A DNA stretch of 64,000 nt, taken from contig CP126203.1 in assembly GCA_030272155.1 (NCBI GenBank), positions 1-64,000 on the forward strand, read 5' to 3'. Shown piece after piece: positions 2,976 to 52,448 of the stretch. The position numbers were made by a program, and so were the translations under genes. Positions within the stretch are counted from its first letter, which is position 1; the number at the start of each line of letters is the position of its first letter. The notes beneath the pieces were generated by a model that searched no databases, was not told the origin of the DNA, and was given only the letters and a program-made list of their open reading frames with translations. This stretch comes from Tetradesmus obliquus. Taxonomy: Eukaryota > Chlorophyta > Chlorophyceae > Sphaeropleales > Scenedesmaceae.

Positions 2976-5900
2976 CTGGAAAGGCAGCAGTGCTGCCGGC
3001 AGTGTCGGTGCTGGCGAATATTCAGCTGGAGCAGTGTCAGAGGTGGGTACCGATGTGCGGCGAGTCGTTGTGCCCCTCTTCACCACTCCATCCATGGCAG
3101 GTGCTGCTGCTGGCGCTGCTGCTGCCGGCAGCAGCAGCATGAGCAGTGTCTCGCGCAGCCCGGACCCTCCACGAAAGCACTCTTACGACAGCAGCAGAGT
3201 CTCAGCGTCGCGGTTTGGGCCACCTGCAGCAGATAATGGTGCAGCGCCGCGCGCCCTTGCCTCGGCAGCTGCAGCGAGCAGCCCCTCGAGCAGCTCTGCC
3301 CAGGGCTCATCAGCAGCAGGCAACACCGCTGCAGCGGCACCCGTGGACAGCAGCGTGGCGTCCGGCTTGCAGCGCTGGAGGTCAGCAGTCAGCAGCACAA
3401 CTGTCAACCTGATACAGCGGCGCTTGGCTGGCACTGACAGCGAGGGCGCCACCAGCAGCAGAACCGGGCCAGGCGGGGCAGCGCAGGCAGGGCAGCAGCC
3501 ATCATCTGGCGGCAGCAGCAGCGAAGCTGGCGGGGCAGCTGACTCGACTCCAAGGCATGCGCGTGGCCGGCTGCTGCCTGGTGCCAGTGCGTCTCCTGCT
3601 GCAGCAGCAGCAGCGGGCAGCCTTGCCGCAGCCGGCTCTGGCGGGCTGACGCTGCGGCGGCAGCTTGGGCAGGTGGGCGGCTGGCCACAGCAGGAGCTGC
3701 ATGTCACCCGGTTGCCATGGCTTGAAATGCTTCTGTACATGTGCACCGCCACTGTTGTCTTGTCAAAGCAAGCCGCTTCCTGCATGCACAGCCCAGCTGC
3801 GTGTAACCAGCCCAGCCGCTGTCAAGCCAAGCATGCATCATGTAGGGCAGCCGGCACCACCCTGCAGCTGCACGCAGGCCCGCACCTGCAACGCTATGCC
3901 CACCTGCTACGCTGTGTCCTTGGTGCGGGGTGCAGGGCAGCTTTGGCGCGGTGTACCTGGGCAGCTGGCAGGGCAACAACGTGGCGGTCAAGGTCATGAA
4001 CCTGCCCGCGGACTTCCTGGAGGACAGGGACGCCTGGGACGGCTCGCCACAGCAGCAGCAGGCGCAGCAGCAGCAGCGGCAGCGGGGTGGCGGCGACGCG
4101 CCCGCCTGTCTGCCGCACTACGCCATCATTGAGGCTGTGCTGTCCAGCATGATGAGCCACCCCAACATCGTGCAGGTGAGGCCCCAACATCGTGCAGGTG
4201 AGGCGCGGCACCGCAGTGGCTCCATATATGTGTGCGTGCATGAGTGGCGACAGGTCACCCAGCAGGCATGAGCAGCACAGGTCCACGGGACTGGCTCAGC
4301 TCGCTGGCTGCTGCTGCTCAGGTCTGCCTTGTTGACTCACACTAGAGCCTGCAATGCTGCCCAGGCCAGGCCGGTCATCTGTGATGAGCAGCAAGCAGCA
4401 GGCTGACCGTGGCAAGCGCCAGGCCTGAACCTTACGTGTGGCATTACGATCTGTGCCCGCAGGTCTACACATTCAAGCTGACACCTATGCTATCACCCAA
4501 AGCTGCCGGGGAGGCGGCTGGCAGCAGCAGCAGTAGCAGCAGCGCCAGTGCTGGCTGCGGTGGGGCCAGCGCAGGCCGCGTGGTGGGCGAGCCAGGGCTC
4601 GGCTCCACGCTGGCTGACATGGCCGCGGCTGCGCGCGCTGCCGCACCGAAGGGCGCTGCTGTGACCGGCTGGGCGCTGAAGCTGGTGATGGAGTACTGCG
4701 ACGAGGTGGGACGCACGGCTGCGGCCCTGCTGTGCCACAAGTGCGATACCCGTGCTCCTCTTGCTGCACAAGTGTGTAGCAAGCGCACATGCCGCTGCAC
4801 CCGACATGACCCGCAGTATGCAAGGGTTGGGTGCCTCTTCCAGCTGCGCGCGCACCTTCCAGGGCACCGCCACAGGCCAGGTGCTGCTGCCCACTGCTGT
4901 GCACCTGATGGCGGCCTCAAGAGCTATGCATCATACCTGCATTGCCTAATTTTTGCGCTGCCCCTGCATGTGCTGCGTGCTGCCTGCTGCAGGGCACGCT
5001 GCGTGAGGCGCTGGACAGGCGGCGGCTGCTGCAGCCCGGGCAGGCGCTGGTGGCGCCTGCTGCAGCGACGCTGCTGCTGCGGGACGTGGCGGCGGCCATG
5101 CTGCACCTGCACAGCGAGGGCGTCATCCACGGAGACCTCAAGGTCGCCAATGTGAGGGCGGCGATGGCTGGGCAGCTGCTGGCGCTGCAGTCTGATGCAG
5201 CTCGTGTGTGCTGGGGAGGGGGGGCTTCCTGCTACATTCCTGGCTGCGCTGACAGATGGCTGATGCAGATGAACATCTCGGTGCTGCTGCTACTCGCTGT
5301 GTTGATGCAACAAAGCATTCTGTACGGCTTGTCCATTAACGCTGTGCAACATATGTTGTGCACTCACCTGCTGGCTGCCCCTGCTGTGCGTGCGTGGCCG
5401 CAGGTGATGCTGAGCAGCGGGCGCAGTGACCCTGACGCGCTGTGGGGCCCGGGGCTGGGCCCGCGCCTCACCGCCAAGGTGGCAGACTTTGGGCTGGCGG
5501 TGCCGCTGGGCCCTGCAGACAGCCACGCCAGCCTCACCGCGCGCGGCACGCCCACGCACATGAGCCCAGAGCTGTTCCTGTCAGGCCGCGTGAGCAAGGC
5601 CAGCGACGTGTACAGCTTCGGCGTGTGCGTGTTCGAGCTGGTCAGCGGGGCCCGCGCCTTTGCCGGCGTGCCGCTGCCGCTGCTGCCGCACGATGTGGCG
5701 GTGGGGGGGCTGCGCCCGCAGTGGCCGGCTGACCTGCCCCCAGGCTACAGCCGGCTGGCGGCCATGGCTGAGGCGTGCTGGGCGCATGATGCACGGGACA
5801 GGTGCGGCCAGCGCGCTGCTGTTCAACTAACCTTGCTGGGCACTCACGAGACGCAGCAGGACTCGCCTCTTGTGTTTGACTGAGAGCACTGCACCTTGTG

Positions 5901-11900: not shown

Positions 11901-14852
11901 GCTCGAGGCGTAGCAGTGTTGTTGGCTCCACATATGTATGTGCAGTGTGATGCAAGCTGCCTTGCATTTGCTGCAGCCCCTTGCGTTGCCTATTGTGCCA
12001 AAGCATAACCTGATCTGCTCTCTGCCGCCCCCTCCCTGCGCCCCCCACCCCACCCCACCCCACCCCACCCCACCCCACCCCCCCACCCGCCCCTGCAGGA
12101 GCACCGCGCCCATCCCCTACTGGAACTTCCCTCCGCTGCGCTGGCTGGTGCCACGCCAGCGCCGCTGCCAGGACGCACTCAAGGTGCGGCGGCCGCCAGG
12201 GCTGCGGGGGTGCAGCACGTTGCATGCATCGCTGCTTTGGAGCACATTGGTGCACCGCTGCGTGCATATGCCAGGCGATGCTGTGTTTCACCTAGCTGTG
12301 CATGTGTTGGGGTGGCAGGCAGGCAGACACCTCCGCAAAGGCATGCTGCTGCGCCCCACCCTCCCCTCTTTCGCCTCGGCCTGACTTGCCCCTGCTGCAC
12401 TGCCCCGTTGCTCCGCCCGCCCCACCCTTGAACAAACCATAACCGCCGCCAGGTCATCAACGAGACGCTTGACGGGCTGATCGCCAAGTGCAAGGCGCTG
12501 GTGGAGGAGGAGGGCGCAGACTTTGGCGAGGACTTCCTCAGCGAGCGTGACCCCAGCATACTGCACTTCCTGCTGGCCTCAGGTGGGGGTGGGGTGGCGG
12601 GTGGGGCCAGCATACTGCACTTCCTGCTCGCCTCAGGTGGGGGGGTGGGGGGGGCAGCAGCAGCGTGCGCAGCTGACACTGTAGGTGAAACAGGGTCGGG
12701 GCGTGTGCTGCGCTGCCTGCTGGCCTGTGGGGCGTGTGCTGCGCTGCCCGACCTCACTCAATGGCGGCAAGGGCTTGCAGCAGTACTCGCCAGCTGGTGG
12801 CTGCAGCTGGTGTGCACCTGGGGGGGAAGCGGGTGTGCATGCGCGCTCACCCACTTGGCTCTGAGCATACGCTGCCTGCCCTGCGTTGCGCTGCAGGCGA
12901 CGAGATCAGCAGCAAGCAGCTGCGTGACGACCTCATGACGCTGCTCATTGCGGGCCACGAGACCACGGCAGCGGTGCTGACCTGGACCATGTACCTGCTG
13001 GCGCAGCACCCAGAGGCGGTGGAGCGCATACGCGCAGAGGTGAGGCGGGAGGCGGCTACACAGCTAGCATGACATGCCTGTCTGTGCCAGCTGCAAGTCT
13101 CATGCAAAACCAGCACGTGCATGTCACGTGCTGTGATGCATCGCGTGCAACTGCAAGTTGTCCTGACTCTGACGCCTCACCCACTGCCCGCGCCCCTCCC
13201 TGTGCCGCCGCCCCCGCTGCTGCTGCCCCCATAATGCCCCCAGGTTGACGCCGTGGTGGGTGACGGGCTGCCCACCGTGGAGCAGCTGCGTGAGCTGCGC
13301 TTCACCACGCGCGTCATCAACGAGAGCATGCGCCTCTACCCGCAGCCACCAGTGCTCATCCGCAGGTGCGTGGACGCGCTTCTGCGAGTGCTGCCTGAGC
13401 CGATGCCGGCAACCCCCGGTGGTGTAGGCTGCCTTGTGTCGTGCACAGCCAGCTCTGCTCCCATGTGGCTGTGCCAGCCTGCGCAGTGCTTGTGCATCTT
13501 GGCCGCAGCATGCTGCACGCACGCAGGCTCATGGTGTGCTTCATGCATGTCAGTCAAGCCACCAGCAAGGGGCATTGGTCTCTCCACTAACACCACACGC
13601 CACTGCCACTGCCTCTGCTGCGTCCCCCGCAGGGCGCTGGAGGACGACGTGTTTGACGAGTACACCGTGCCTGCTGGCAGCGACATCTTCATCAGCGTGT
13701 GGAACCTGCACCGCTCCCCGCAGCTGTGGCCTGAGCCCAACGCCTTCAACCCCGACAGGTTTGGGCCTCTGGACGGGCCCATCCCCAACGAGGTGAGCTG
13801 CGGCAGCAGCAGCAGCAGCGCCAGCAGCAGCAGCAGCAGCAGAGCAAGCAATGTGGTTGTCGATTGCGTCCATTCATCCAGCAGCAGCAGCAGCAGTAGC
13901 AACAGCTGCTGGGGTGTCGGGGCAAGTGGGCTTGAAGCACGATGATGGTTGCAGCAGCTGCTGAAGCTGAGGGGCATGAGGCGCGGATATGGTCAGTTGG
14001 CGACTCCAGAGAACAGCGCACGGCTTGCTCGTCTGTGGGTGAAAACCATTCCTCCTTCTCACGTATGTGCATGCTGCGCCGCCCCTGCGCTGCCACCCCT
14101 CCTCCTCCCCCTCCCCCCTGCCCCGCCAGATCACGGAGGGCTTCTCCTACCTGCCGTTTGGTGGCGGCCGCCGCAAGTGCATCGGCGACCAGTTTGCGCT
14201 GTTTGAGGCCATCACGGCGCTGGCGGTGCTCATGCGGCGCTACGACTTTGCGCTGGCCCCGGGCAAGCCCGAGGTGGGCATGACCACAGGTGAGTGGCTG
14301 TGTGTCTGGGCTGCGGGAGGCGCAAGGGTCTGCGGCTGCAGCAGCAGCGATGAGCTGCGGCGTGGCAGCACAAGTGCGCATGACGCACTTGCTAGAATGG
14401 TTGCTGTGTATTTGCACGTGTGTGCGAGCCGGGCGCGTTTCCGCCGGCAAAGAGTATGGCAGCTCTATAGGAACCCTGCCGATGTCACAGCGTTTGCTGA
14501 CACATTGCTGTTTAAATGTTTTGCTGCTGCGTCAGGCGCCACCATCCACACCGTCGCGGGGCTGTGGATGAATGTGAAGCCGCGCGCAGACGTCCCCGCA
14601 GCACCACACAGCAATGGCAGCGTGGTGCTGCCTGTGTCACCCCTCAGCAGCAGCACAGCAGCAGCAGCACCAGCAGCGCCCAAGGTGCCTGTGGGGGCTG
14701 CCTTCACAGATGGCAGCAGCAGCAGCGACGCAGCAGCAGCAGCAGCAGCACCAGCAACAGCTGGCAAGTGCCCGTTCAGTGGCGCGCTGGGCATGCTGAA
14801 AGGCAGCGATGAGGCCAAGCAGCAGGGCGGGGCAGCTGCAGCCGCGCTGTAG
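8950..14852 (+). CDS. CYP97A: Carotenoid beta-ring hydroxylase, cytochrome P450 CYP97A (LUT5-like)
   Basis: 13 exons: 8950-9229, 10066-10231, 10604-10699, 10908-11022, 11445-11570, 11721-11809, 12099-12183, 12453-12582, 12897-13039, 13244-13365, 13633-13792, 14130-14289, 14536-14852; 662 aa, all junctions GT-AG and in phase. The protein follows plant CYP97A/LUT5 from end to end as I recall that family: a plastid-transit-like N-terminus, then [43 protein letters not shown], the I-helix AGHETT (381-386), ExxR (437-440) and the heme loop [10 protein letters not shown] with Cys521. It should hydroxylate beta-rings of carotenes (lutein/zeaxanthin route) at the chloroplast envelope or thylakoid with a plastid electron donor. 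The C-terminal ~90 residues are an Ala/Ser-rich extension beyond the P450 fold. Exon 8 ends in a duplicated donor (see 12553-12643). Confidence 0.95.
12553..12643 (+). repeat. 54-bp tandem duplication across the exon 8 donor of CYP97A
   Basis: The exon end coding [10 protein letters not shown] and the following GTGGGG donor are copied 54 bp downstream with one mismatch (12553-12589 and 12607-12643). The donors are at 12583 and 12637. The spacing is 18 codons with no stop, so the second donor would give an in-frame insertion repeating [10 protein letters not shown]. Confidence 0.92.
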
Positions 14853-18892: not shown

Positions 18893-18935
<43 letters not shown>

Positions 18936-20672: not shown

Positions 20673-23600
20673 ATGTGGGCCGTGGCTACCATACTGCTGC
20701 TCTGCCTCCTGTTGTCAGGTGGGAAACAGCGTGGAGGTATGGGCAGAAGCGCAACCGTTGTGCCGCTGAAACTGATGAAGCTATAGCAGAAGTTATGTGC
20801 TGTGATGCTGCTGTGTGTATTGAGCAGGGGCTGATGCAGCGCTGGGCAGTGCAGCCAGAAGGCACAGCAGGAGCAACAGCAGCAGCAGCAGCAGCACCAC
20901 CACCACCACCACCAGCAGCAGCAGCAGCAGCAGTAGCAGCAGCAGAACACGGAGGCGTGCCTTACACTTGGCGCCAAGTGATGGTGTTGAAGCAGTTCAA
21001 GCCAACAGTACTGGGGTAAGGCCGCACACTGCGCTCTCTCTGTCTGAGCAGCAGCTGCTGTCTGACTAATACGCGGGCAGGCTGCAGCCAGCGCAGCCTG
21101 CAGGCCAAACTATTGTGTCAGCAGCAGCAAGCGCGCAGCAGTACACCTGGGCCAAGCCCGAGTGGGGCCAGTACAGGCGGCGCGCTGTGGTGCTTGCCGA
21201 CCCAAGCGGCCGCAGCGAAGGCTTCAGCATATGGGCTTGGGACATCGTGCCAGAGGTGAGCACACACTGCATGGCTGGCCTCTTGGTCTTATGCAGCTCC
21301 CAGCTGCAGCGCTTCTGCCCTGCAACAACTGTTCTGGCACATGCTGCATGTGCGAAGCTAAGCTGTACTCATGATCATGTTGCTGGCACAGCATGCGAAG
21401 GGTCAAGGCAGGCCAGCCCAGCCCAACCTGCCCAGCAAGCATCCCAGCTGCACAACGCACTGCTGGCACAGCGCTGTGCCTGGCAGCCCTGTTTCGCTAG
21501 GCCCTGCTGCAGCTGTGCTTTCAATGTAATTTTTTTGGCAACCACCGAACTGCTTGATTTATGGTCAAGCCACATAATTGACCAGGCACACGCTGCGCCA
21601 CGCTGCCGTGCAGTCAGCCGTCAACATAACGTTGGCAGTGCTGTCGGCGATCGTGGGCGAGCTGCAAGACGATGCGCGCAGCCGGCTGGCAAGCTCCAAC
21701 CCGCCCAGCAAGTTTGCGCTGATACAGCGCCCGCAGCAGGTGTGGACGGACATCCCTGAGCAGAGCGTGTGGAAGGGCACAGCCATCGGCGCCAAGGACT
21801 ACGCAGGTAGGCAGGGGGAGGGGAGGGGAGGAGCGCCTGGGTGTGCCAGCTGCAGGCGTGGCTGTGCTGGTGCCGCCCGGCCTCAGGGTTTGTTGTGCCT
21901 CTGTTGTACGCTCACCAGGTGTCTGAGTGAGTGTGTTCCAGCACATTTGCAGCGCCCGCAGCTCCTGCTGCAAGGCTCTGACTGGTGCTGCGTGTGCTGC
22001 ATTGCGTGGCCCAGGTGTGGGCGGCACTGCCTACCTGCCCGTCACCGTGTGTGACAGCCGCAACGTGCTGGAGACAGCCGATGACCCCTACTGGTTCGAA
22101 TCCATCCTGGTGAGCAGGGCAGAAGTCTGCATGGTGCATGCCTCTGATGCATGGCTGCAGCTGATCCGTTTTGGATGATGCGCGTGCATGCGCTCAAGTG
22201 GTGGCGGCACATGCACTTCGCGGAGCTACTGCTGCAATCGCAAGCAGCAGCAAGCCACCACAGCCCAGGCGACACGGCTCTTCTCCCGCTGCGTTGCGGC
22301 ACAAGGCATGTGCATGCCTCTGATGCGGCACAAGGCATGTGCATGTGGTCGCTCGCAGCTGCCAGCCAGCACTGGCAGTGACACCCAGGGTAGCACGACA
22401 CTCCCACTTTGGGACATTTGGAATGTTCTGAATAGCTGCGCCACAACCATTCGCAACTGTATGCGCAGGTGCACGAGTTTGCGCACCACATCCACGCCGT
22501 GGCACTGTCAGGCTGTGAGCAGGCAGCTGTTGACGGGGCCTACGCCAGTGCGCTGGCCGCTGGCTCCTACAGCCGCGGCATCTACATGATGAGCACCGTG
22601 TACGAGTACTTTGCATGCGCGGCGGAGGGCTGGTTCCAGGTAGGCAGGCAGTCCCGTCGGGGGTGCTGACCTCCCTGCACACGCTGCAGCCTGGTAGCTG
22701 ACCTGCAGCAACAGCCAGATTATCCCAGCATACGTATGTATGCTGACAGGACAGGCTGACAGTTCAGAATACTCTGACAATCATAAGTATATCGACAGAG
22801 CAAGGGTACTGCGTTGTCTCAGCAGCCCCCACTGATGGCCAGGCCCTGCAGGCTGGCGCCCTGCTGGCCTGCTTTCCAGTTGCATCGTAGGCGCCGCATC
22901 CGTGATACCACTGATATAATGTGTAAGTGCAGCACCAAACCTTGCTGGCACTTGCCATGTTTGCTGCAGGGCACATGCCGCGATGACGTGAATGACGGCA
23001 TCATCAGCAGGCCCCGCCTGCTGGTGAGAGACCCTACGCTGTTCAGCCTGTTCAGCTTCATCTTCACAGCCGATGTGCAGCGCTTTAGCTACAGAAGCTT
23101 GTGCCCCAACTGCAACAGCAACTTCAGGGCTGAGGCGGACGTGCGGCTGCCGCAGCAAGCTGCGCCGGTGAGCGTCAGGCTGCATGCGGCATATGCAGCT
23201 GCAGGTGGCGCTGAGCTGCCGTCAATTGATTGGAACACTGCAACTGCTGATGCACTGCAATCCATGCACCGCTTACTGCTGATTTGCTTGAGCTCCAGTT
23301 GTTGCTTCTATCTGAGATGGTCACAACATACACAGTCCATCTTACCCTACCAAACTGCTGGTATCTACGTGTACATATGCATTTGCCGCCCTGCCTGCTG
23401 GTGTTGTAGGCACCCCTCATCGACCTACAGCTGGAGAAGTGTGCAACAAGCGCCAACAACTGGCGGCCCGTGCCCCACAATGCGCCCGACTGCAGTGACA
23501 AACAGCCAGGCTGCAGGGCACGCGCCATAGCCGGGCAGTGTGACACGCATGCGGACATGCTGACGCACTGCCAGCTGGCGTGTGGTGTGTGCCGGCAGGT

Positions 23601-24886
23601 CAGCAGCAGTGCGGGCTGCATTGACCGTGATGCTTCCTGCTTTGTGGCGGCCAGCGTGCAGGGCAGGTGCCAGAGTGACGCAGCAGGCATGGGGCCGCAG
23701 GGCATGGGCTGCCTGCTGTCATGCGGCAATTGTGATGGCAGCCCCTCTCACAGCCCAGATGTGCCCCGCCCCTCACCTGATCCAAGGTGGGCCAGCATCT
23801 GGCAGGCACCACGCACATTCAGATATCATGGCATCCGCTTTTAGATACTCAAAGCTGTGCTGCATGCTGCACACTGTGGCGACCCCTCTTGACTGCACAG
23901 ATGCTTCAAGCACGATGCACGCCAGCTGGATGCATGGCAGCTGGTTGTGAAACGTTTCAGAGGCCTGAGGCGTCCGCAGCTTGCAACCACACCCACTGCA
24001 GCTTGCACCCACACCAACTGCGTTTACTGACAAGGTTGAGCTGCTGTCACTGCTGCCCCATCCTGCAGCCCCTTGCTGCCGTCACCATCACCCGTCCCAA
24101 GGTGTGCACAGGCGCACGGCTTTCACACAATGACATCTTTAGCAGGAATGACGTTGGCACGGGACATGCATCAAATGCATGGCAGCAAGTGCTGTAAAGT
24201 CGACAAGTACACCATGGGGCAGCTGAACGTGTGAGCTGCATCTTATCGCTGCTCTGCTGCTTCCATGGCTTGCTTACCGTGCTATTCCGCCGTTTTTTGC
24301 ATGCTTGCTTGCCTGCAGCCCCTGCGGCACATGCGCCAGCAGGCACTGCACAGCCCGGCAGGGCTGCTGCCTTGACCACAGCGACCAAGCACACCTCACA
24401 TGCACCTGCAACAGCAGCAGAGGGCTGGAGCCGTCCCCAGCAGGCAACAGCAGCGCCCCATCAGGCGGCGCCGCCCCCTCCTGTGGGTGGGCGCTGCGCA
24501 TGCGCAGCAGGCACTGGCAGCTGCCCGCGGATGCAGCGGTGGCGCTGCCCTTCTGGCTGGCCGGGCCGCGCGCTGCTGGCGCCGCTGCAGCAGCCACACC
24601 TGTGTGCCCTCCCCAGGGGCTGGCGGTCTTTGCTGGCAGCAAGGGCAGCAACCCACTTGGCGCGGGCTTGGTGTTGCAGCGCAGGGTGGAGTGCCGGGCC
24701 TCAGGCTGGGCGAGGCTGCAGCCGGCAGTGGGTGCTGCTGCCCTTGGCGAGTTGTGCGCAGCAGGGCGCAGCTCGCTGCTGTTCAACACGAGCCTGCCTG
24801 TGGGTGGTGTCAGGGGCGACTGTTGGCTGGTGCTGCTGAGGCTGGCAGACGGCAGCAGGCAAAGCATGACCTGGATGTTCTACTGA
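20673..24886 (+). CDS. Secreted zinc metallopeptidase with two ShKT domains, paralogue A
   Basis: Exons: 20673-20718, 20828-21015, 21088-21255, 21614-21806, 22015-22109, 22469-22639, 22970-23167, 23410-23786, 24069-24101, 24319-24886; about 678 aa. Exon 1 is a signal peptide (MWAVATILLLCLLLSG). The catalytic motif is HEFAHHIH (232-239), with a downstream EYFACAAEGWF where a third Glu ligand (276) is expected, as in gluzincin-like proteins. GVGGTAYLPV and the DDPY-before-HExxH arrangement recall bacterial proteins annotated as zincin-like. Two six-Cys ShKT-type modules follow (380-413, 422-460), then a Pro/Ser hinge and a ~190-aa C-terminal region that paralogue B lacks. Exons align one-for-one with B (27533-30451), with the same phases and near-identical lengths. 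The difference is the extra 72-bp intron 21016-21087, which removes a TAA at a position that is Tyr in B. The role is probably extracellular matrix proteolysis; substrate unknown. Confidence 0.8.
21016..21087 (+). other. Candidate new intron spanning a stop codon in metallopeptidase A
   Basis: 72 nt, a multiple of three, phase 0, donor GG|GTAAGG and acceptor GGCTGCAG|C, with CTGACTAAT as a possible branch site. Paralogue B is plain exon here and reads DYYAGKL. A reads D-stop-YAGRL, with TAA at 21067-21069. Splicing out this segment keeps the ancestral frame. Confidence 0.6.
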
Positions 24887-29624: not shown

Positions 29625-29666
<42 letters not shown>

Positions 29667-31420: not shown

Positions 31421-34400
31421 TCATGACAGCGGGTCGGCGCCGCTCCAGTCAAATTCTATGCTGTTGAGCAGGTCCAGCTGGCGGCGGCTCAGCACCTTGC
31501 ACCTGCACACGGCAAGGCAGGGCAGCAAGGCAGGCTGTCTGAGCGCTGGCAGCTACGCAATGCGCAGGTTGTGCACCCAAATCACAGCAGAGCTGCTGGG
31601 TTCAGCTTGTACACAGCTGCCTGCAATCTTGTGGCGATCATCGTAGGTGCAGGCACAGCAGACATCGCTGCCACTCAGGCATGGGCAAGCAAAGGTTGCA
31701 GTGCATCAAACGCATCAACATCCTGCTGCCACGCTGCTGCTGCTGCTGCCTGGCTCACCGGTGTGCCACACGCTGCACTGAGCACCAGTTGATGAGGTAG
31801 AGGTCGGCGCCCGCTGACAGGCTCATGGGGCTGGCGTGGCCGTGAGCCTCCTTGAACCTGACAGGGGTGGGGCAGCAGCAGCAGGACAGCAGCAGCAGCA
31901 GCTGTCACAGGACACCTTTGATCACAGCAGCTGCTGCAGCAGGCTTGGCTCCTCAAGGCAACAACGATAGGCAGGCAGGCCTCGGCTGTCGCAGCCACAC
32001 AGGGCATGCTGCTCACTTCAAGGCACCCTGTCAACTGCATTTGGTGTGTGCACTTACAGCAACACCATCCCTGCAAGCTGCCTCCTCAGCCTGCTGCCGC
32101 CCAGCCCTGCCCTGCCCCTGCCCTCATCCTCACACGCACACCCACCGAGCCAGGTCAAGGAACCAGCGCAGCCACTCCGCCTCAGTCTCATCCGGCTCAA
32201 AGCGCAGCTCCTGCAGCAGCTCAGCCTTGGCGGGGGCCAGCAGCCCGGCAGCCAGGTCGCGCCGCTGCTTGTTGGCCCACCTGCACAGCCAGCAGCGGCA
32301 GCAGCGGCGGCAGGCAGCAGCACACAGCAGCTGCTGAGGAAGACTGTCAATGGCAACATCTGCCACTCCCATCCGTCACAGGACAGCCGACCTGGGACAT
32401 ACTGCAACGCGCACCGCGCCTACGCTGGCAGCGTATGGCTCTTTGAAGCATGTCTTGTGACTGTCTGCCGCTACTATTGAAGCGAATTACAGCCGGCCTG
32501 CTGGCATTGCGGCCTGAAGTGGTCCTTGTAAACATGCACAGGCAGCCGCTGCTCTCACCACGCCAGCTGAGGGTCATCGCCCTCTCACGCTGCAGCTACA
32601 GGTGACGCACAGATCTCTTGCTGCCTGGCATATCACACACCGCTGGCCCATCACGTGCCCCACACGCTCCCTCACCGTGCCAGCTCAGGGTCGTCCCCTT
32701 CCCGCCATCCCACGCTGGTGTCGCCGTGCTGCCGGTGGTACGCCCGCAGCTGCACAGCGCGTGCCTGCCACTCAGGGTCGCTGTCGGACGCCACGCCCTG
32801 CTCCCAGCCCTGCGGGAGGATGGCAGCAGCAGCAGGCGGGTGGGCAGCGCAGCATGAGGGGGCATAGGTGCAAGGAGCAGCGATGCTGTGGGCCGCTGCT
32901 CTGCTGGCGCAAGGACTGCATGCTGGCGCCTGGCTAAGGCCTGGCAGGGAGCGGCCAGGCCCTGTGAAGGGCTTCCTGAGTGGCCTGCAATGGCTGGAGG
33001 AGGCTGCAGTTTATGAAGTGCACAGCAACTGCGCTGCACATCGGGGGCTGTGTGTGGCACTGCAATCCTCCCTTGGTGCATGGCAGGCGCCGCATGCACA
33101 GCGTGCCTTGCTGAACAATGCAAGTCATGCACAGCAGGCATGCCAGGGCATGTTGCCCCCCCCCCCCCCCCCCCACACCTTGATGAGCTCCGCCAGCTCC
33201 TCAGGGGCCAGGCGTGCCCAGTCAGCCAGCGGGTTGCCCTCATCCAGCAGCAGCAGGCTGGGCTGAGCCTCCACCACCTTGACCACGTCAACGCCAGCAG
33301 TGGCAGACGCCAGCTGCGGCCCAACAGCAGCAGCAGCGGCAGCAGCAGCAGGCAGGGCATCGTCAGTTGTTCTGCTAGCAGGAGTCTTCCACAGCGTCAA
33401 CAGCAGCTGCAAGGCCCTGGGCATCCCTGGCTGCAAGGCAGATGGGGAGCACTTCCCAGCCTGCATACTGCCCAGGCTGCCAGGCACAGCAGCACACGAC
33501 CTTCACCAGCCGTGTGCCAGCACACCGCCTAGCAAACCGTTGCCAGCTGGCAACTGCTGCACGGCTGCATGCGCCTGCAGCGTCACACCACAGCAACCAG
33601 CCTGCTGCAGCTGCCCAGCCCCTGCCGCCCCGCCCCTCACCCGCATGGCCATGAGCCTGCTCAGCAGCTGCTGCCTGCTGGCCGCCAGCAGCTGAGGCTC
33701 CCGCGTCACCATCCACACCACGTCCACGTCAGCGCCCCCACCCAGCAGCGCATGCAGCTCCAGCAGACGCCGCGACACGCCCGCGATCTGCACATGCAGG
33801 CAGACAGGCGGGCAGGCAGGCGTGTCAGTTGTTACAGCCTGGTGGTGATGAGCAGGCATGCGTCACAATCTGCTGCGCTAGGCTCCGCCCCACATGATGA
33901 TTGCCCTCCCCAATAGCAAAACTCCTGCCAGCAGCCGTCCCCCCCCCTTAATTGTGTCTTTGGGGACCTGCCCTGCTGCTGCTGCTGCTGCTGGCAATGC
34001 AGCAGTCGCACCTCCACACACTGCCGACTAGCACTGTGACACACTACTCCTGCTGAGCTGCTGCTGCTGCTGCCGCGTCATGCTGGCTGCTGCGCATCAC
34101 CAGGGCTGCTGCTGCATGCCGCAAGGCTCCCACCTCTGGCACGCTCTGGTTGAGCGCCCAGGTGGTGGGGATGCCCGGCAGCGGCGCGCCCTCAGCCAGC
34201 TGCAGGGGCGGCGCAAAGTCCTCGTCAAGGCTGCCCTCATCAGCGCCGCCTGCGCCAGCAGCGCGCAGGGGCGGGGTCACGCCGGCATAACACGTCAGCA
34301 GGAGCAGGGCGGCGCTGAGCAACAGCTGCGGAGCAGGGACAGCCACTGCCGCTGCATTGCCTGCAGTGACTTGGCCCTACCTACAGCTGCTGTTGCTGGC

Positions 34401-39393: not shown

Positions 39394-39448
<55 letters not shown>

Positions 39449-42400
39449 GTGACAAAGTTAGCAACAGCTTCAACAAGGGTGGGTTGCTCAGGCAGAGCCA
39501 TGCAGTGAGAGGGGGGCGGGCGAGCTGCGGGCAGCTGGCCGGGCAGCAGCAGCAGCAGCAGCGGCCACGCGCCATTCAGCAGGTGCCTCGCAGCAGGGCA
39601 GCGTGCCCGGCAGCCATCCTTGGGCCACTGCTGCGCTGTACAGGAGTTCCACCACCTGAGCACCTTCCGCCGCCTCCACCACCGCCACATACACACACAA
39701 ACACACCCTGTCCCGGGTATCCACCACCACCACATACACACACAAACAGCCCTGCTGCACTGCAGCAGCTGCACCTGCACAGCCATGCCGCCCGCCAAAG
39801 GGCGGCTGCTCCTGTGGCTGCCTTTTCTCGAGTTTGAGCTGTTACCCTTTCAAGCCCTGCTGCGCAGGGCACAGCCCACCCCACCTTCATCAGGAAGATG
39901 GCGCTGTCCAGCTCCACCATCTGCGCCCCTTCCCCCGCCTCCACCACCACCACCACCACCACATACGCACACAAACACACCCTGTCCCCCCTCCCCCTTA
40001 CACACCTTCATGAGGTAGATGGCTGTGTCGAACTCCACCAGGCCCATGACGCCCGCGATGATGATGGCGGCCATGGTGTTGTAGGGCAGCAGCTCAAAGA
40101 CCTTGGTCAGGAACAGCAGCACAAACATGACCACCATGCTCGTGATGAAGCCGGCCAGCTGCGTCTTGGCGCCTGCAGCAGCAGGCAGCAGCAGAGTGGC
40201 GTGTGAGGTGCTGTCACAACTACAAGGAGGCACCTGCTGCAAAACATGTAGCAACATGTCCATCGACAGCCGCAGCGCGACGAGGCCCTCCCGTGCGGCA
40301 CAACTGTTACCGCCTCGTCACGCCACCCACCTGAGCTGTTGTTGACTGCGCTGCGTGAGAAGGAGCCCGTGGTGGTGTAGCTGTTGAACATGGCGCCCGC
40401 AAAGTTGGCGATGCCCAGGCCCACGATCTCCTGGTTGTAGCTCAGCTCGTAGCCGTTCTTGCTGCAGGGGGGGGGGGGGCAAGATAGAACGGGCAGAGGG
40501 CAAAGATATACACGTGAAGTGGACTCGCTGATGAGGAAGGTTGCTGGCAGCCAACACCACAGGGTCCGGCGCTGCTTGGGTTGACAGGGCTGTTGCCAGA
40601 CTGAGCACGCAGATGCAGCGCCAGGCGTCTTGAACATACATGCAGCACGCTGGAATCGCAGCAAGCCAGTAAGCAGGGCCACAGCACGCATGCGATCAGG
40701 ACACTGCCGTCTCCAAACTGCTGCAGCCCTAGCCTGCCCGTTGCTGCTCTGCTGGTGCTGCCCCTCACCGTGCCAGTGCTCGCGCGGTGCTGGTGGACTC
40801 CAAACACACCAACAAACAGCAAAAAAAAGCAGAAAAGCAGACCACTGCCCCTCACCGTGCCAGTGCCCGCGCAATGCTTGTGCTTTCCAGCAGGTCCACC
40901 AGCATCACCACTGCGCTCAGGCCCAGCATGGGCCCCAGGTTGTTGACGGGGGCCCACCAGCCAATGGTGGGGGACGGCAGCCCTGGAGGCAGCAGCAGCA
41001 GCACATCACAAGCGACCTGGTCAGCCTCAGTTGCAGGAGGAAGCTAGGTGCCACATGGAGTGCACACAGACCATGTTGGGCACCAATGTTGGCGATGCAC
41101 GCCACCGACAACAGCCGCCAGCACCACTGCCTGCTGCGCTGCCATACCTTGCCAGCAGCATCCTGCAGCATCCAGCACATCCAACAATCGCCATGCCCCA
41201 GCTGATGGTGTTGTCCCCCCCCCCCCCCCCTCACCCTGCGGGATCTTTTCCACAATCTTGTGCATGCTCCCACTCCCCCTCCGCCTTCCCCCACCCTCCC
41301 AATACACACATCAGTTCTAGACTGAGCCTTGCTGCCCCCTTCCACACACGCTCACCCTGCGGGATCTTCTCCACCACCTTGATGCCGCGCCTGTCCAGCT
41401 TGCCCGCCACCACCGCAATGATACTAATAGCGCACGCCATGATGGGGCCCAGCGCAGCCAGCCAGTGCAGCTTCTTCACACGCTTTGAAATGACCTTCAA
41501 ACCAATCAGGAAGCCCAGCATGGCCAGGCCCATCACGCACTCCTTCCACTTGAAGCCGGCACGGCCCGCAATGAGCACCTTGATGATCTCGTGCAGCGAG
41601 TCCATGCGCGGCACCTGGACACGGCAGCAGCAGCAGCAGCACGATGAGCAGGCTTTCAAGCAGTGACGTGGCGATAATGCAAGGTGCAGCAGCTGCAGGA
41701 AATGGGTACAGCAAGGCGAGCGCTACTGAAACATGCTGCGCAACCTGTTATCGTTGCTGACGTTGCAATGAGTGGGCGGCTGAGGTGGAAGCTGCAGTAG
41801 GGCATACAGGAAGCTCTGCCACATTACAGCAACAGGAATCCAAGCCGCATGGGCCCTCCTGCCTATCAGCTGCTGAGCTGCATGTGCTGCTGCTGCAGCA
41901 TGCGGCTGTCGGCCGCTCACCTTGTAGCCAAGGATGTAGCGGACCTGCGGCAGCAGCAGGAGCAGCAGGAGGCATGTCGGTACGATTACAGCAAGGAAAC
42001 CAAGCATTTTTGCGGTACTGCGCGGTAGGTGATGAGCCACAGCCGCCCCTGGGTCCAGCCCACTCGCTGCTACTGTTCAATGACAGCGGCTGCACCAGCA
42101 ACGCAAACACATGACATGCCACACATCCACAGGCATGCCCCACAGCAGCGCTGCCCATACCTCCAGCTTTATACATGCAGCCCACACCTAGCACACGCGC
42201 ATTTTCACCGGTGCATCACCCCAAGGCCATAGCAACAGCGCCACCTGACCCTGCACCCTGCTGCAGCATGCCCATGCGACGCGCCCACTCGGCTCACGCC
42301 AATGACGACCCCCGCCCGGAGATGCAGCGCGGCCACACCATATCATCCACCAGCAATGCGCAACTTGCAGGCACTGCAACAGCGCCAGCAGCCCCCTGCA

Positions 42401-44347
42401 CCCCACAACAGTGTGAGGCGCTGCCTTACCTGGCTGATGCCGCCGCCCCGGATGTTCACCAAGTAATCACGCTGTGGCTGAGGAGGTGCTCGATGAAGCC
42501 CAGCCGCAGCAATGCACACACACAACACGCCGCATCCCCACAGACACGCCGCATAGCAGCGCTGCCTGGCTCGTGCCGATCAGTATCATGCCAGAATTGG
42601 AAGCAAGCGCAACACCAGCTTATCCTACTGGTCCTGGCGCCTCAGGTGTATAGCCCATATCCTCAGCTGCGCCTCGTGGGGATATGGTCCTGGCAACTCA
42701 GGTGTACAGGCCATATCACTCCTGGTTCCCCAAAACCAGAAGGATAACTAGTTCATCAGCCACTAGCCCAAGTAGGCGATATCAGGTGGGGTGCAGCGCA
42801 CCTGGCTCATGCTGATGATGACCGCCGCCCCCCTGGTGAAGCCCGTGATCACGCTGTGGCTGAGGAAGCGCACGATGAAGCCCAGCCTCAGCGCGCCCAC
42901 GCCCGTGTACATGCACGCCACCAGGAATGCCACCTGGATCACCTGCAGGATGGCACACACAGCAGCAGCAGCAGCACAGTCGAGGGTCACGCAGAGAGGG
43001 CTCCGGCAGCAGCATGCAAGGCACCAGCAGGCTGTGGCTCCAGCCAGGAGGCTGGCCGCGAGCAGCAGGGCTGGCAGGCAGCCAGTGGCCCAGAAACAGT
43101 GCATGCACAGCAGCGGCAGCAGCAGCAGCAGCAGCAGCGGCGCTCTGCAAGCTACATGCCCCCCCCCCCCCCCCACCTTGTGGTTGTAGATGTCCTGCAC
43201 CCCCGCAAACTCGCCGGGGTTGTTGGGGTTGTCGATGTTCTCACTGCCCGGCACCATGGCGCGGATGCCGTTGCCTATGAGCAGGCTGGTGACGGCCACT
43301 GGCCCCACGCCCAGCTGCTTGCTGCTGCCCAGCAGCGCGTACACAGCCAGCGGCAGGAACGCGCCGTACAGCCCATACACGGAGGGGACACCTGGCACAG
43401 CAGGGCAGGCGCAACGCACACAACAGAAAGGTGCAAGCAGGTGCAAGGTGAACGAAGACACTCCAGTGTTATCCTTATCGAGCTAATGCCATAACGCACA
43501 GGCTTCGACAGCTTTGTTGCTGACAGGTGCAGTGGCGCATGCAGCACAGCAGGTGAGGCGCACACCACCCCGCGCGGGCCCTCACTGTGGGCGCCAGGCA
43601 CTGCAGCTGCCCGCTGCGACCGCTGCATGTGTCGACATGTGACGCCAACGTCCTCTTGTTGTTCGCGGTTGCCGCTGCTCCAGGGCTTGCTGCAACTCAG
43701 CCTGGACATCACATGCACTGCTGCACCTGCCGCCACTCCTCACAACACCCCCCACACCTCCCCACCACCACCACGCACACCTGCCCGCCCACCTGCTATG
43801 TTGGCGTAGCTCATGCTCTGCGGGATGATCATGAAGCCCACACTGATGCCCGCCAGCAGGTCCCACTGCCAGCAGCAGCAGCAGCAGCAGCAGCGATGAT
43901 GCCAGCCAGGCAGGAAGGCAGCATCAGGTAGCTGCGTCAGCTGAGGCAAGCGCATCTGCCGACTGCCACGCGCCACCACCTGCCATGAAGGATGAGGCTG
44001 CAGCAATGTGTGTGCACTGGGTGAACAGCTGCAGCATCAAGCACCCGCCATGCAGTGCAGGGCGCCAGCAGGCAGCAGCGCAGTGCATGGCCGCATTCAC
44101 GCCCCCCCTCCCTCTCCCTGGTTGCTGCTGCTGGCACAGCAAGCTGAGCCCCCTATCATGCACTGCTGGCTCTCTCCACCTGATCCTGCTGCCCCGCCCC
44201 CCGCCTCCCCACCCCCTCTCACCAGCAGCCACTCCTTGACGCGGTAGGTGCGCAGCCAGCGCAGGCAGGGCAGGAACAGCGCGGCCCAGTCAAACGGCGT
44301 GAACTCGCGGAACGCCTTGCTGCCGCTACAGTGGGGGGAGAGGCAAA

Positions 44348-44379
<32 letters not shown>

Positions 44380-47788: not shown

Positions 47789-47819
<31 letters not shown>

Positions 47820-48270
47820 TGGCTGTCATGGCTAGGCTTTGCTGCTGCTGGGCTTGTGGCTCAGGGCAGCGTGCTGGCGCATGCAGATGCCGCTGCCGGC
47901 CCGCACGACCCGGTGAGCAGGGCAAGCCCACCTGCAGCAATGCAGCCAGCGCGGTTGCACACAGCCTGCAGCTGCACTGGCATGTGCATGCATGCTCCCA
48001 GTTGCAACCTAAGCATGTAGCCTGTGCGCCACAACCGCACACAGCCGAGGCCTGCTGTACTGCACTTGCGCTGCGTTGTGTCGCGTCTGGCGGTCATGGC
48101 TGCACCTGCACATCATGGTCCTTCACTTTATACTAACTCAGCCTGCTACTGTTATGCGCGTACACTCAATCTGCGTGGCGCCAGGTGTGGGCTGCCGCGC
48201 TGTCATCTGCTGAGCTGGCAGTGGCAGAGGCCTTCCAGGAGGCACTGCTGGACTACGACAGGGCGGCAGC

Positions 48271-48316
<46 letters not shown>

Positions 48317-51300
48317 GACACGTCAACCGCAGCAGCACCACCAAACACCAGCAGCAGCAACAGGCCGCAGCAGCCTCAGGTGGAGCTGCAGGGCCACCTG
48401 CTGTCAGTGGCCATACCCATTCTGCCAAATGCTGACGTGGCGGGGCTGGTGGGCCTCATAGAGGAGGGCCTGGATGCCCTGGCAGCCGCCAGCAGCAGCA
48501 GCAGCAGCAGCACGTCCAGCCGCCTGCTGGGCACCTCGCGCGTGGTGCAGTGGGAGAGCAGCAGGACGGTGAGGCAGCCGCCACACGCCGCACCCGGCAG
48601 CAGCAGCAGCAGCAGCAGGGAGGAGCTGCGTGTGCAGGTGATGGTGCCCCTGCAGCACGGCTCGCCGCATGAAGACAGCAGCAGCAGCAGCGGCAGCAGC
48701 AGCAGTAGTGTGTCGGGCTACGGGCGGCTGTCTGTGGTGAAGCCCGGCAGCCCCTTCACTGGTGATGAGCTGGCGCTGCTGGCACGGCTGGTGGCCGCTG
48801 CCAACAGGCCTGGCGGGCCGGGGCGGGTGAGGGGCGCTGCCAGCTGTAGCAGCTGCTGCTGTGGAGTGGGCAGGGCAGCTGGCTGGCTGGGTGGCTGCAT
48901 GCTGCGGCAGCTGCTTGATGCCCAGTGCTATGGCAGCTTGCAGCAGCCAGAACAGCAGCGTCCAGCCACATGGCATGCATTGTAGCGTACTGCACTGCTC
49001 AGCTGACACACATCGACAACAGCTCTGCCTCACACTTGCTGATGTGCTGCAGGGTGGTGATAGCCTGCTGCGGCCTGGCTGGGGCTCTGGCAGCAGCAGC
49101 AGCAGGCACCCTTTCAGCGGCCGCAGCAGTGACCCGCTGTCTGCCAGCCCGCTGGCGAGGCTCTTTGGGGGGCTGGTGGCGGGGCTGGCTGGTGACCTCA
49201 TCGGTGGCATGGCGGGTGACGCCGCTGGCGACGTGGCTGGCGGCCTGGCCGGTGACGTGGCCGGTGACGTGGCGGGTGACCTGGCGGGTGACCTCACTGG
49301 CTACTCTGCTGACGACCTGGTTGGTGACCTGGCGAATGACATTGCTGGCGCCATGAAGGTGGGGCAGGCTGGGGCGCTGCACGCCTGACCGCTGTGATGT
49401 TTGTGTTCTTTTCTCTGCGTCAGGTGCCAGGCAGTGAGATCAATGTGCTGGCAGTGAGGCCTAAAGGCATGAGCCGCATGCTATCCTGACACATGCAGAA
49501 AGCCTGCTGCAGCCAGGCGAGCTTGCATCACACATGGTTTCAAGCAGTTTGCCGCTTGCCGTGCCCGTGCTGCCGCCACGCTCCACTCCCTGCAGTCTGA
49601 GCTGCAGCGCAGCTGGAAGACGCTGCTGGACGACCTGGGCGGCGGCAGTGGCAGCAGTGACAACTTTGGCAGCGGCAGCAGCAGCAGCAGCAGCAGCGGG
49701 CGCTTCAGCAGCTTTGAGGAGCTGGAGGAGCACATTGAGGCGCAGCTGAGGGAGCTGGCCCCACCCGAGCTGCTGACATGGCTGCAGCAGTTTGAGCAGC
49801 AGGCGCGCCAGCAGCAGCAACAGCAGCACCAGCACCAGCAGGACTTCCCTAGAAGCAGCAGCAGCAGCAGCGAAAGCAGCAGGTATGGGGGCAGCAATGG
49901 GCATGGCCCCCCGCCGCCTGCCACCCAGCAGGCGCAGGCGCCGCCTCAGCAGCTGCAGCCGTGGCAGCAGCCGGCCGCCCGTGCTGCTGTGCAGCAGCTG
50001 CAGCAGCTGGGCGCGCAGGTGTACCTGCCTAGTGCGGCCGCGCTGGCCAGCCAGCAGCAGGACGGCACAGCTGCTGCTGCTGCTGGCGATGATGGTGGTG
50101 GTGGCGAGTGTGGCTGGGGCAGCCTTGCCGGCTATGAGTCCCAGAAGCAGGCGCTGGAGGACTACCTGCTGCTGCCACTGAAGCACCCAGAGGTGGGCGC
50201 AATGGTGAAGTCTGAAGTGAAGATGTAGAAGTGCTGAGCTTGGGGTTCAGCAATGGATGGCAGTGTGTTGAGGGTGGGAGCATGAGGCGCGCGCTGGGGG
50301 TTGGTATCAAGCGATGCCTGGGCCAGGCTGTTTACGGGTACAGTGGTGCATTTGCTCTGCTGGGTGGAGTCACGCATTGAGATGTGCATGGATGCTTCTA
50401 GGCTGTTGCCAGTTGCCTGCGCTGCTGCTGCCCTGCTGCTGCCCAGGTGTTTGAGCGTGTTGCGTCGCGCACGCGCAAGACTGCCCAGCCGGGCGGCAGC
50501 AGGCCGCGTGCTGTGCTGTTTGAGGGGCCGCCAGGTGGGCTGCCTGCTGGGCGGGGCTGCTGCAGCCACATGGTTCTGATTGGAGGCATTAGGGCTGTGC
50601 AGAACAGCCTGCTGCGCTGGTGACTTGTAGCTCGCAAACTGAGCTGAGCAGCGTGTAACATATTGTGGATCCTGCAGAAGCTAGCCTTGCACGTTATATA
50701 TGGTCACAGCCTGTTGTTTGCTGGGCTAGTGCCTGGGGTCGGGTTCAGTCCTGAAGGTGTATTGTATTGTGTATTGTTGTCTAGCGGTTCAGTGCCGCAG
50801 CTATCATCAATCTCCCCAAGGTACCCTGCAGGCATGCAGACAAGCGCTGTGACGTCATCTGTTTCTGTTGCTCATTGCAACTCCTTTGCACCAGCTGCAC
50901 CCCACAGCCGCCCTCCATGTCCTGCGCTTGTGCTCGCTGCTGCTGCAGGCACCGGCAAGACCAGCAGTGCACGGGTGCTGTCCAGCCGCGTGGCGCTGCC
51001 GCTGGTGTATGTGCCGCTGGAGGGCCTGACCAGCAAGTGGTACGGGGAGAGCGAGCAGAACATGGCCAAGGTGGGAGGGGTGGGGCCGGTTGCTGCAGGG
51101 CGGCCAGTTTGTTTCACTGCGTGCAACAGCACCTGCTCCAACTGCTGCTGGAACGAACGTTGAGGGCTGCACTGCTTTTGCTTATTTGTGGTGCGGTGAG
51201 AGTGAGCAGAACATGGCCAAGGTAGGGGCATGAGGGAGAGGGCCTGGACACTAAACTCATTATGCATCAGCTATGGTACAGAGGGTGTCAAGCGATGGCT

Positions 51301-52448
51301 GCTTGGTGGGCATGTAACACAACCAAGCAGCTATCTGCAGCCACTCAACTCTGCATGTGTTGCAGGCCACTTGACCCTGACTGTGCAGCTGTCGAAGTCG
51401 TGCAAGGCGCTAGGCGGCTGCGGCAACGTCTGCATTGCAGCAACCCGAATCTGAGCATGTCGTGCTGACCCAGCGCTGTGCTCTCTTTGCAGCTGTTTGA
51501 GGTGTGCGGGGCGATGGGCGGCTGTTTTGTGCTACTAACATAGTATGCCACCTTCATTCTCACCCTCCTTCTAAATTTGCGCCGCCTGCAGCTGTTCAAG
51601 GCGTGCGAGGCGCTGGGTGGCTGCGTGATCTTCCTGGACGAGCTGGACAGCCTGGCGGGCAGCAGGGAGCGACCCGACATGCACGAGGCCAGCAGGAGGC
51701 TGCTGGGAGTGCTGCTGAGGGAGATCGACGGCTTCGACAACATCAGCGTGGCGGGCGGCAGCAGCAGCAGCAGCAGTAGTGGAGCAGGGAGTGGAGGGGC
51801 TGGGGGTGGCTTTGTGCAGCAGCAGCAGCAGCAGCGAGGTGCTGCCAGCCGCCGCAGTGTGCTGATCGGCGCCACCAACAGGCGGCAGGACTTGGACGCT
51901 GCGCTGCTGAGCAGGTGGGTGAAGCAGCCAGCAAACTGAGTTTGTGCTGCCTGCTGCAGAGTGGTAATGGCTTAGCAGGAGGTTCACCTTACATATTGTA
52001 CCTGTCTTCATGACTGCAAAACAACACCCTGTTGCTGCCATGCTTGCCATGCTCCTGATGTGCACAAATGCCGTGCTTGCCAACCACTTTGCGCCGTTGC
52101 TCCCCGCCTGCCAGGTTCGACCTGTCCATCCACTTCGGCCTGCCCGATGAGGCCTGCCGCGCAGCCATCCTGCAGCAGTACGCGCAGCACCTGCCGGCAG
52201 ACGCGCTGGGCCGCATCGCAGCACAAACGCAAGGCTTCGCAGGACGTGACCTGCGTGACGTGTGTGAGCAGACTGAGCGGCAGTGGGCCAGCCGCATCAT
52301 ACGGGGCCAGGTGGATGAGGCGCAGCTGCCAGGGGAGGCCGACTACCTGGCCGCTGTGCAGCAGCGGCGGCAGGGCGCGGGCGGCGGCGGCGGCAGCGCT
52401 GGTAGGCAGGCGCCGTGGCTGGATGGCGGGCAGGTGCTGCAGATGTGA
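47481..52448 (+). CDS. AAA ATPase, probably mitochondrial membrane-anchored
   Basis: Nine exons: 47481-47912, 48185-48826, 49053-49358, 49424-49453, 49548-50192, 50447-50534, 50949-51070, 51592-51914, 52115-52448; 973 aa. The N-terminus (MLRRSLYAAILQSRALHVAL) looks like a mitochondrial presequence. It is followed by a Ser tract and a hydrophobic segment (WLSWLGFAAAGLVAQGSVLA, about 113-132). A long Gln/Ser-rich region includes polyQ (48270-48316) and a Gly-Asp repeat in exon 3. The single AAA domain has Walker A GPPGTGKT (712-719), pore-type KWYGESE, Walker B CVIFLDELDS with Asp771-Glu772, sensor-1 GATNRR (Asn851) and the sensor-2 region FAGRDLRDVCEQTERQWASR. A Ser/Gly/Gln insert separates DGFDN from sensor 1. 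It resembles plant AAA proteins with MHEA.RR.L.VLLR.IDGF. It likely extracts or remodels proteins. Introns 6-8 hold decayed exon copies. Confidence 0.88.
49190..49345 (+). repeat. Coding minisatellite (Gly-Asp-hydrophobic-Ala repeat) in the AAA gene
   Basis: Units of 12-15 bp around GGTGACCTGGCG or GGTGACGTGGC are repeated about ten times. They encode GDVAGD/GDLAGD-like runs in exon 3. All units keep frame. Confidence 0.8.
51198..51227 (+). repeat. Copy of AAA exon 7 end plus donor in intron 7
   Basis: GAGAGTGAGCAGAACATGGC, then CAAG|GTAGGG, repeats the true exon end at 51047-51076 with few changes. The true donor is at 51071 (GTGGGA). The copy is 151 bp downstream. Confidence 0.88.
51389..51531 (+). 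repeat. Two decayed copies of AAA exon 8 start, each with its acceptor
   Basis: TGTGCAG|CTGTCGAAGTCGTGC (exon copy from 51389) and TTTGCAG|CTGTTTGAGGTGTGC (from 51491) precede the true CCTGCAG|CTGTTCAAGGCGTGC (from 51592). The three are spaced 102 and 101 bp apart. The copies read LSKSCKALGGC and LFEVCGAMGGC against the true LFKACEALGGC. Confidence 0.88.

Follow-up and report, generated by a model that had tools for sequence, protein, structure and literature searches.

We describe the recurrent copying of exon edges, together with their splice sites, into the adjoining introns of Tetradesmus obliquus. The DNA under study (the window) is the 64-kb stretch C13:1-64000 of a 104.66-Mb genome in 17 contigs, and coordinates without a contig name refer to C13. 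The copies are anchored at exon-intron junctions, keep the strand of the exon, lie on a fixed side of it, have recurring sizes, form arrays at some loci and belong in some cases to duplications of a whole unit that includes intron sequence. We favor, with somewhat better than even confidence, recurrent exon-anchored short tandem duplication as their origin, splicing burying the copy in the intron. According to this model, a tandem unit, mostly of 100-140 bp, would straddle the exon edge and contain 25-60 nt of exon and about 45-120 nt of intron. The outer, original site would stay in use, so that the second unit would become intron and the protein would be unchanged. Units would re-duplicate into arrays, and the copy would then decay. 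Selection would purge duplications within exons and most of those that leave the real site with too short a stretch of intron, and anchoring in exons would come from repair or recombination that starts in exonic DNA.

The copying was quantified in 244 kb of C13 (the window and the next 180 kb), this one contig being the source of most of the data. Gene models were produced without RNA by a self-trained, home-made gene finder with fixed priors, and all junction counts are counts of predicted junctions. The scan set comprised 253 introns (506 modeled junctions), each flanked by confident exons and no longer than 2 kb, with a median length of 288 nt. Probes of 45 nt taken from exon edges were compared with their own intron (score of at least 20), low-complexity CAG/CTG runs being masked in this and in the null test described below. 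Copies were detected for 30/253 donors and 19/253 acceptors, that is at 49/506 junctions and in 40/253 introns, or about one in six modeled introns of the 244-kb stretch. Of these 49 rows, six were subsequently excluded as mis-modeled or whole-exon repeats (79643 and 172679, twice each, 155623, and 196785). The comparison of introns with their flanking exons against relocated pairs, proposed in the preliminary description for the whole genome, was positive for this stretch: the same probes matched length-matched other introns in only 13/10120 donor and 0/10120 acceptor comparisons. At the same score, reverse-strand copies were found for 0/253 donor and 0/253 acceptor probes. Probes located 45-90 nt inside exons matched in 4/206 and 1/209 cases (5/415 in all), confirming that copying is recurrent and concentrated at exon edges. 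Among 161 exons with both introns modeled, donor edges had 20 copies downstream and none upstream, acceptor edges had 12 copies upstream and none downstream, and 0/322 wrong-side introns contained an edge copy. The rule of downstream donor copies and upstream acceptor copies, already noticed in the window, therefore holds, as it should because of the geometry of any junction-spanning duplication. We rejected chance similarity on the basis of the edge-scan controls, the null draws, and the wrong-side test.

Copying also occurs on other contigs. In 29 introns from these contigs, 8 donor and 1 acceptor matches were obtained, with 0/1160 in other introns and none on the reverse strand. Four blindly picked 10-kb stretches contained copies at 2/38 junctions (one in C3, one in C6, none in C1 and C10), and a C14 stretch chosen because copies were visible contained them at 7/20 junctions, two of the seven in one array. 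In contrast, the claim that the process is dense in the window was not borne out by the automatic test, which scored 2/86 introns in the window versus 38/167 in the next 180 kb, although this test misses cases found by eye if the model places the junction elsewhere or if only a short piece of exon matches. The difference in density may partly reflect the subtelomeric position or errors in the gene models. A telomeric CCCTAAA array detected by TRF at positions 1-298 identifies the window as a chromosome end.

Copies at nine junctions of the window had been reported, and reading back the coordinates located all nine. Each junction was submitted to a null test in which 45 exon nt and 8 intron nt were compared with same-length pieces of other introns in 20000 draws; for eight of the nine, the observed match was never equaled (0/20000). 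In the kinase gene (plus strand; Pfam kinase), the last 16 exon nt and the donor GTGAGG (4160..4181; modeled exon end at 4175) are followed by a perfect 22-bp intronic tandem copy (4182..4203) detected by TRF and self-comparison. In the CYP97A gene (plus strand), the exon edge and donor (12553..12589; exon end at 12582, in agreement with P0121, P0133, and P0135) recur at 12607..12643 with an offset of 54 and 1 mismatch in 37. The gene reported as mTERF/HA (minus strand) has an HA domain according to Pfam, based on a partial model, but no other domain was found; its donor edge (32676..32706, junction 32676/32675) has a decayed copy at 32554..32584. In the AAA gene (plus strand; Pfam AAA), the exon edge and donor (51037..51076; exon end at 51070) are copied at 51188..51227 with an offset of 151. 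The acceptor junction of its following exon (51587..51625; exon start at 51592) has two upstream copies, the first of which (51384..51422, TGCAG and the exon head) was picked by the null test and the second of which (51488..51526) is based on ungapped self-comparison. The AAA junction positions were 2 and 5 nt off in the null test, which does not affect the match.

The remaining four junctions are donors of the SulP gene (minus strand), all defined by the gene model. The last 91 nt of exon 42802-42942 (42802..42892; also P0001) have a long, decayed copy at 42424..42511 with the donor GTAAGG (offset about 381; self-comparison; BLAST 80.5% over 77 bp, E=4e-11). The null test picked a second, shorter copy of this junction at 42283..42317, absent from the preliminary description, so that the long copy is based on BLAST. 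Junction 41356 (41350..41381) has a copy at 41229..41260 (offset 121; 31-bp ungapped match, score 22). This is the exception in the masked null test, in which the evidence was weak (656/20000 draws match it); unmasked, the match is among 16 non-repetitive pairs scoring at least 17 in the 64 kb. Junction 40856 (40845..40889, also from self-comparison) is copied at 40758..40802 (offset 87), the match ending 11 nt into the intron. Junction 40006 (40000..40040, likewise from self-comparison) is copied at 39879..39919 (offset 121), and its unit has a further decayed repeat at 39633..39714 (offset about 268 from 39901-39988; 78% over 91 bp). The range of preservation proposed for the copies, from the perfect kinase copy to the decayed HA-domain copy, was confirmed. 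The lower end of the proposed range of offsets (22 bp) also stood, and the upper end was raised from about 370 to about 380 bp.

The exon part of the copies is usually 25-60 nt (median 43), and the offset is mostly 100-140 bp (22/43 kept events), with extremes of 22 bp and about 380 bp. Donor copies begin 31-238 nt into the intron (median 91; 28 events), acceptor copies end 58-302 nt ahead of the real acceptor (median 90; 16 events), and the shortest spacers are those of the kinase (6 nt) and CYP97A (24 nt) genes. When a 45-nt probe was slid along the donor side, matches fell from 28/178 at -15 to 3/159 at 60 nt, 1/146 at 75 nt, and none from 90 nt; on the acceptor side, they peaked at +15 (16/176) and were absent from 60 nt into the exon. 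On the intron side, identity (ungapped, averaged over events other than introns 79643, 172679, and 155623) had dropped to the background level by about 10 nt beyond the junction. Copy-bearing introns exceed the others in length (median 441 versus 258 nt), a comparison that is partly circular.

Copies accumulate at some junctions. Intron 105399-106056 contains, by eye, two donor and three acceptor copies. In a SulP paralog (C14:2163601-2165320), the same exon edge as 42802-42892 is present in a tandem array of about five 240-bp units, most with one long and one short exon-end copy and the first three nearly identical. A whole short exon was copied in two events, 172679-173100 and 159051-159428. 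Copying also extends past coding-sequence ends: C13:196486-197164 contains an array of the last codons of a gene with its stop codon, and a second likely case lies near 147.7 kb. Probes from coding-sequence ends matched in 7/38 cases and those from starts in 2/18, both in array regions; inspection of the printed sequence assigned four of the end matches to mis-split junctions or arrays and one to a minisatellite, leaving about two cases. Copies past stop codons indicate that the splice sites themselves are not required.

Tandem duplication of whole units is apparent for the kinase 22-mer at 4160, the 240-bp unit at C14:2163687, 112960-113442, and 156150-156390, where the intron part is, by eye, more alike than the exon part. 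More generally, the spacer resembled the sequence past the copy in 20/45 testable events (13/20 young ones) at p<0.05, a threshold at which about 2/45 are expected by chance. The two longest perfect probe matches on C13 (40-45 nt; 112960 and 172679) have homologous spacers. The 25/45 events without detected spacer homology include an acceptor copy in 105399-106056 that matches the exon at 45/46 positions, a 20/20 copy at 80489, and a 22/22 copy at 161347. Divergence was compared between spacer and exon part in 43/49 events (196785, 79643, 172679, and 155623 left out) plus one C14 event, 40/44 of which are listed; pooled over 17 events with clear homology, the ratio was 1.7, for a neutral value of 1.6.

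Duplications confined to introns are too rare for a process that ignores exons. Among 151 introns, a test for local duplications was positive around 29 donor and 18 acceptor sites. Matches in mid-intron were present in 20/118 testable introns, just four of which had no edge copy; in a separate run, they were found in 22/120 introns, mostly introns with edge copies. Uniform duplication followed by neutral decay, simulated at various indel rates and evaluated in the same way as the real data, predicted 1.5-2.2 intron-only or 1.9-2.7 mid-intron matches of any kind per edge event, versus an observed 4 intron-only or 20 mid-intron for 43 edge matches. The intron-only deficit is thus 16-24-fold, or at least 4-6-fold when every mid-intron match is counted, with values that hinge on the simulated unit size and on assumptions of uniform age and of selection. 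The count omits a coding repeat and minisatellites (79643, 65348, 151404, and 223169), two of which are long enough for intron-only arrays. This rarity indicates that some exon anchoring is needed.

Differences between copies and exons depended on age in 37 events, eight introns being left out (79643, 172679, 155623, 196785, 90131, 192728, 106160, and 83937). The 12 copies below 90% identity had 27 synonymous and 40 non-synonymous differences, a synonymous fraction (0.40 versus 0.39 expected) that fits neutral decay and led us to reject protein-coding constraint on old copies. The 25 copies of at least 90% identity had a 36:19 ratio in favor of synonymous differences (0.65 versus 0.39, p=0.0001), which remained biased when the gene family at 102-120 kb was excluded (19:13, p=0.014) and differed from that of old copies (p=0.007). 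Without the exclusions, the ratios were 39:21 in 29 young copies and 55:100 in 20 older ones. The mainly synonymous differences of young copies make a young copy and its exon resemble two working alleles. A relationship between each copy and its own exon also emerged from paralogs. Introns 105399-106056 and 112960-113442 are paralogous and have, by eye, common copy boundaries and spacer ends, each copy matching its own exon. The left boundary of the SulP copy at 42424..42511 is at most about 3 nt from that of the C14 paralog copies, each being closer to its own exon; the C13 copy is C13-like at 10/16 diagnostic sites, C14-like at 4, and neither at 2. Common boundaries combined with own-exon matches fit homogenization, derivation of the copies from alleles, or a hot spot of breakpoints.

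Two functional roles had been suggested for the copies. It was correctly noted that most of them keep splice dinucleotides: in the 43/49 events analyzed for splice sites (79643, 172679, 155623, and 196785 left out), copied donors keep GT or GC in 24/27 cases and copied acceptors keep AG in 11/16. Selection of the copies as functional decoy or alternative splice sites is nonetheless very unlikely. Retention of donors was not above the neutral expectation (0.774, p=0.25), copied sites scored below real ones (p=0.0007 for donors, p=0.03 for acceptors), and use of a copied site would introduce a frame shift or a stop in 39/43 cases. Old copies are consistent with neutral decay, copies also follow a stop codon, and neither P0001 nor the CYP97A relatives contain the copies. 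A T. obliquus gene of another strain (OEZ85_001360) encodes annotated SulP-paralog isoforms, P0037 and P0038, that differ by a near-perfect 42-residue repeat, as though one of them included a copied exon, making occasional inclusion of a copy possible. We found no evidence of a role for the copies. The birth of new introns from tandemly duplicated exon DNA with AGGT retains scarcely any probability. Many junction copies do contain AG and GT, and a scan for the signature of this process, in which the copied AG serves as acceptor of the new intron, returned 6/253 introns as candidates. Among these, 155623-155743 and 156242-156365 proved to be mis-modeled arrays of donor and acceptor copies and 196785-196925 a mis-modeled stop-codon array; 90131, 114685, and 176901 stand as candidates. 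Use of the copied AG as acceptor was not found in the cases opened.

Could the copies be an artifact of the assembly or of the home-made gene models? Mis-modeled repeats do occur, as at 79643, 155623, and 196785, but such an origin is most improbable: the controls use the same models, the copies differ in divergence, indicating that they are not assembly duplicates, and proteins P0001 and P0121 bear out the junctions of SulP and CYP97A. Templated insertion of the polymerase theta type or RNA-templated repair, which would copy the exon edge without a spacer, is in keeping with the loss of intron-side homology about 10 nt from the junction and with the events devoid of detected spacer homology. 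However, random templates should yield inverted copies and copies of exon interiors, and the former were absent (0/506) and the latter scarce; together with the homologous spacers of the two longest perfect matches, this makes the process quite improbable as a general explanation. Exon-templated homogenization, gene conversion keeping the exon part of old duplications similar while the spacer drifts, would account for the common boundaries and own-exon matches of both paralogous pairs and for near-identical exon parts next to diverged spacers, as in the C14 event (1/64 versus 9/45). We consider it unlikely, since events with spacer homology are young enough that intron-only duplications of equal age should be visible, so that conversion alone does not account for their rarity. 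In addition, in the 85745 array the exon and spacer parts of copies 2 and 3 show, by eye, about the same divergence, and the paralogous boundaries may reflect independent origins at a common breakpoint hot spot.

Uniform tandem duplication combined with purifying selection, those within exons being lost and those at junctions being noticed through their conserved copy, accommodates the whole-unit cases, the near-neutral pooled divergence ratio, the short minisatellites inside introns, and the array and likely single copy past stop codons, where splice sites are not required. It is rather doubtful, as both the intron-only and the mid-intron matches fall short of its predictions and spacer homology is too scarce; in its neutral form, it is disfavored on these two grounds. 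A possible, though not very likely, account is unequal exchange between diverged alleles able to pair in their exons alone, each exon edge forming a homology cliff. Highly diverged introns in the population would leave the exons alone as pairing ground for recombination or repair; the exchange would overrun the exon into non-matching intron and resolve out of register, leaving a tandem exon-edge copy and an intron stretch, often from the other allele. Allelic exchange would explain why copies are anchored at donors, at acceptors, and, once or twice, at coding-sequence ends, why intron-only copies are rare and inverted ones absent, why near-identical exon parts lie next to diverged spacers, and why synonymous differences are in excess among young copies but not among old ones. 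Gene conversion and templated insertion may contribute.

Several points weigh against exon-anchored tandem duplication as we formulate it. Exon anchoring, for which repair or recombination is a putative cause, draws on an intron-only deficit that is only 4-6-fold if every mid-intron match is counted. Spacers as short as 31, 24, and 6 nt weaken the argument based on a minimum intron length. According to a simulation limited to donors and with fewer null draws than the observed test, the neutral tandem model should show spacer homology in 82-84% of detected events and in 86-92% of the young ones, versus the 20/45 and 13/20 found, implying that a subset of events involves more than plain duplication and decay. 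Several events combine a near-identical exon copy with 15-30% spacer divergence, and the divergence ratio rises to 2.6 once the two poorest exon alignments are dropped by hand from the same rows. The synonymous bias of young copies is not expected of a neutral copy. Finally, the junctions are predictions of the home-made gene finder.

The gene models were compared with proteins for SulP and CYP97A. Pfam supports the kinase, P450, sulfate permease/STAS, HA, and AAA genes of the window. The window SulP protein matches T. obliquus OEZ86_008861, listed at 100% identity and coverage; sulfate transporters of Scenedesmus acutus are the subject of PMC8780407, as far as its accessible part indicates. 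The SulP model and the annotated protein P0001 agree at all four copied junctions, P0001 being devoid of the copies and containing two extra residues at one upstream junction. In the CYP97A relatives P0121, P0133, and P0135, the sequence continues across the copied junction without the copy; use of the copied donor would add 18 in-frame residues, which P0121 lacks. The gene finder mistook two window copies for exon, the copied CYP97A donor and 39885-39938. Its trained donor matrix has about 11% C at position +2 (all models, C13:1-244000), which suggests many GC donors or over-prediction. A search of viral contigs with the SulP gene found no relative, and Rfam returned zero matches in the window. 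The intronic segment 42701-42756 matches sequences in C5, C16, and at C13:370154 with 88-91% identity, making it a candidate short interspersed repeat on sequence grounds. Elsewhere in the window, two adjacent, similar predicted genes (21104-24799 and 26915-30451) contain a HEFAHHIH or HEFGHHIH motif, which we take to be zinc-protease-like, and are probably a tandem pair; a 251-residue part of the first had no Pfam match.

Transposons, slippage, and drift are the usual explanations for intron length and for new splice sites. The junctions described here offer natural experiments on intron growth, on the disregard of near-perfect site copies by the spliceosome, and on exon-anchored recombination; if allelic exchange is the cause, introns would grow through failed allelic exchange. 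Among the matches listed in a literature search covering titles and abstract openings, with most subscription papers outside it, there was no report of such exon-edge copying. Duplicated or mutually exclusive exons also involve exon sequence repeated within an intron. Mutually exclusive exons are complete, open, and constrained, with both splice sites, whereas the copies are mostly truncated edges with one site; their exon part is usually 25-60 nt of longer exons, with two whole-exon exceptions, and the older ones match the neutral expectation. Polymerase-theta templated insertions use templates in either orientation near a break, and none of the edge probes had a reverse-strand match. Introner elements (PMC9860276) likewise represent a genome-wide, intron-shaping process; from the accessible text, they form a shared mobile family with many similar copies in unrelated genes, whereas each copy here derives from its own adjacent exon. 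The near absence of matches in other introns of the modeled set shows that copies are not common to different genes and, in this respect, unlike introners. The main text of PMC9860276, in the form available, contains no occurrence of Tetradesmus or Scenedesm.

Tandem duplication of AGGT-bearing DNA has been described as a route to introns (PMC3443670; PMC4974935). As presented in the accessible parts of these papers, it resembles the present process in that a short in-gene duplication copies splice-site-bearing sequence, and in a potato case the duplicated segment covers an intron-exon structure already present. It differs in creating a new intron, whereas here the duplication takes place inside an existing intron and the original sites are used where checked. 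Small tandem duplications also arise from staggered breaks by CST and Pol alpha-primase fill-in (PMC8355091). They are likewise small, direct-orientation, and tandem, and they form at breaks, although the accessible part of that paper introduces them as short (<100 bp) insertions without the exon anchoring seen here. By analogy, tandem duplication at staggered breaks would be a plausible elementary step for the copying of exon edges in T. obliquus.

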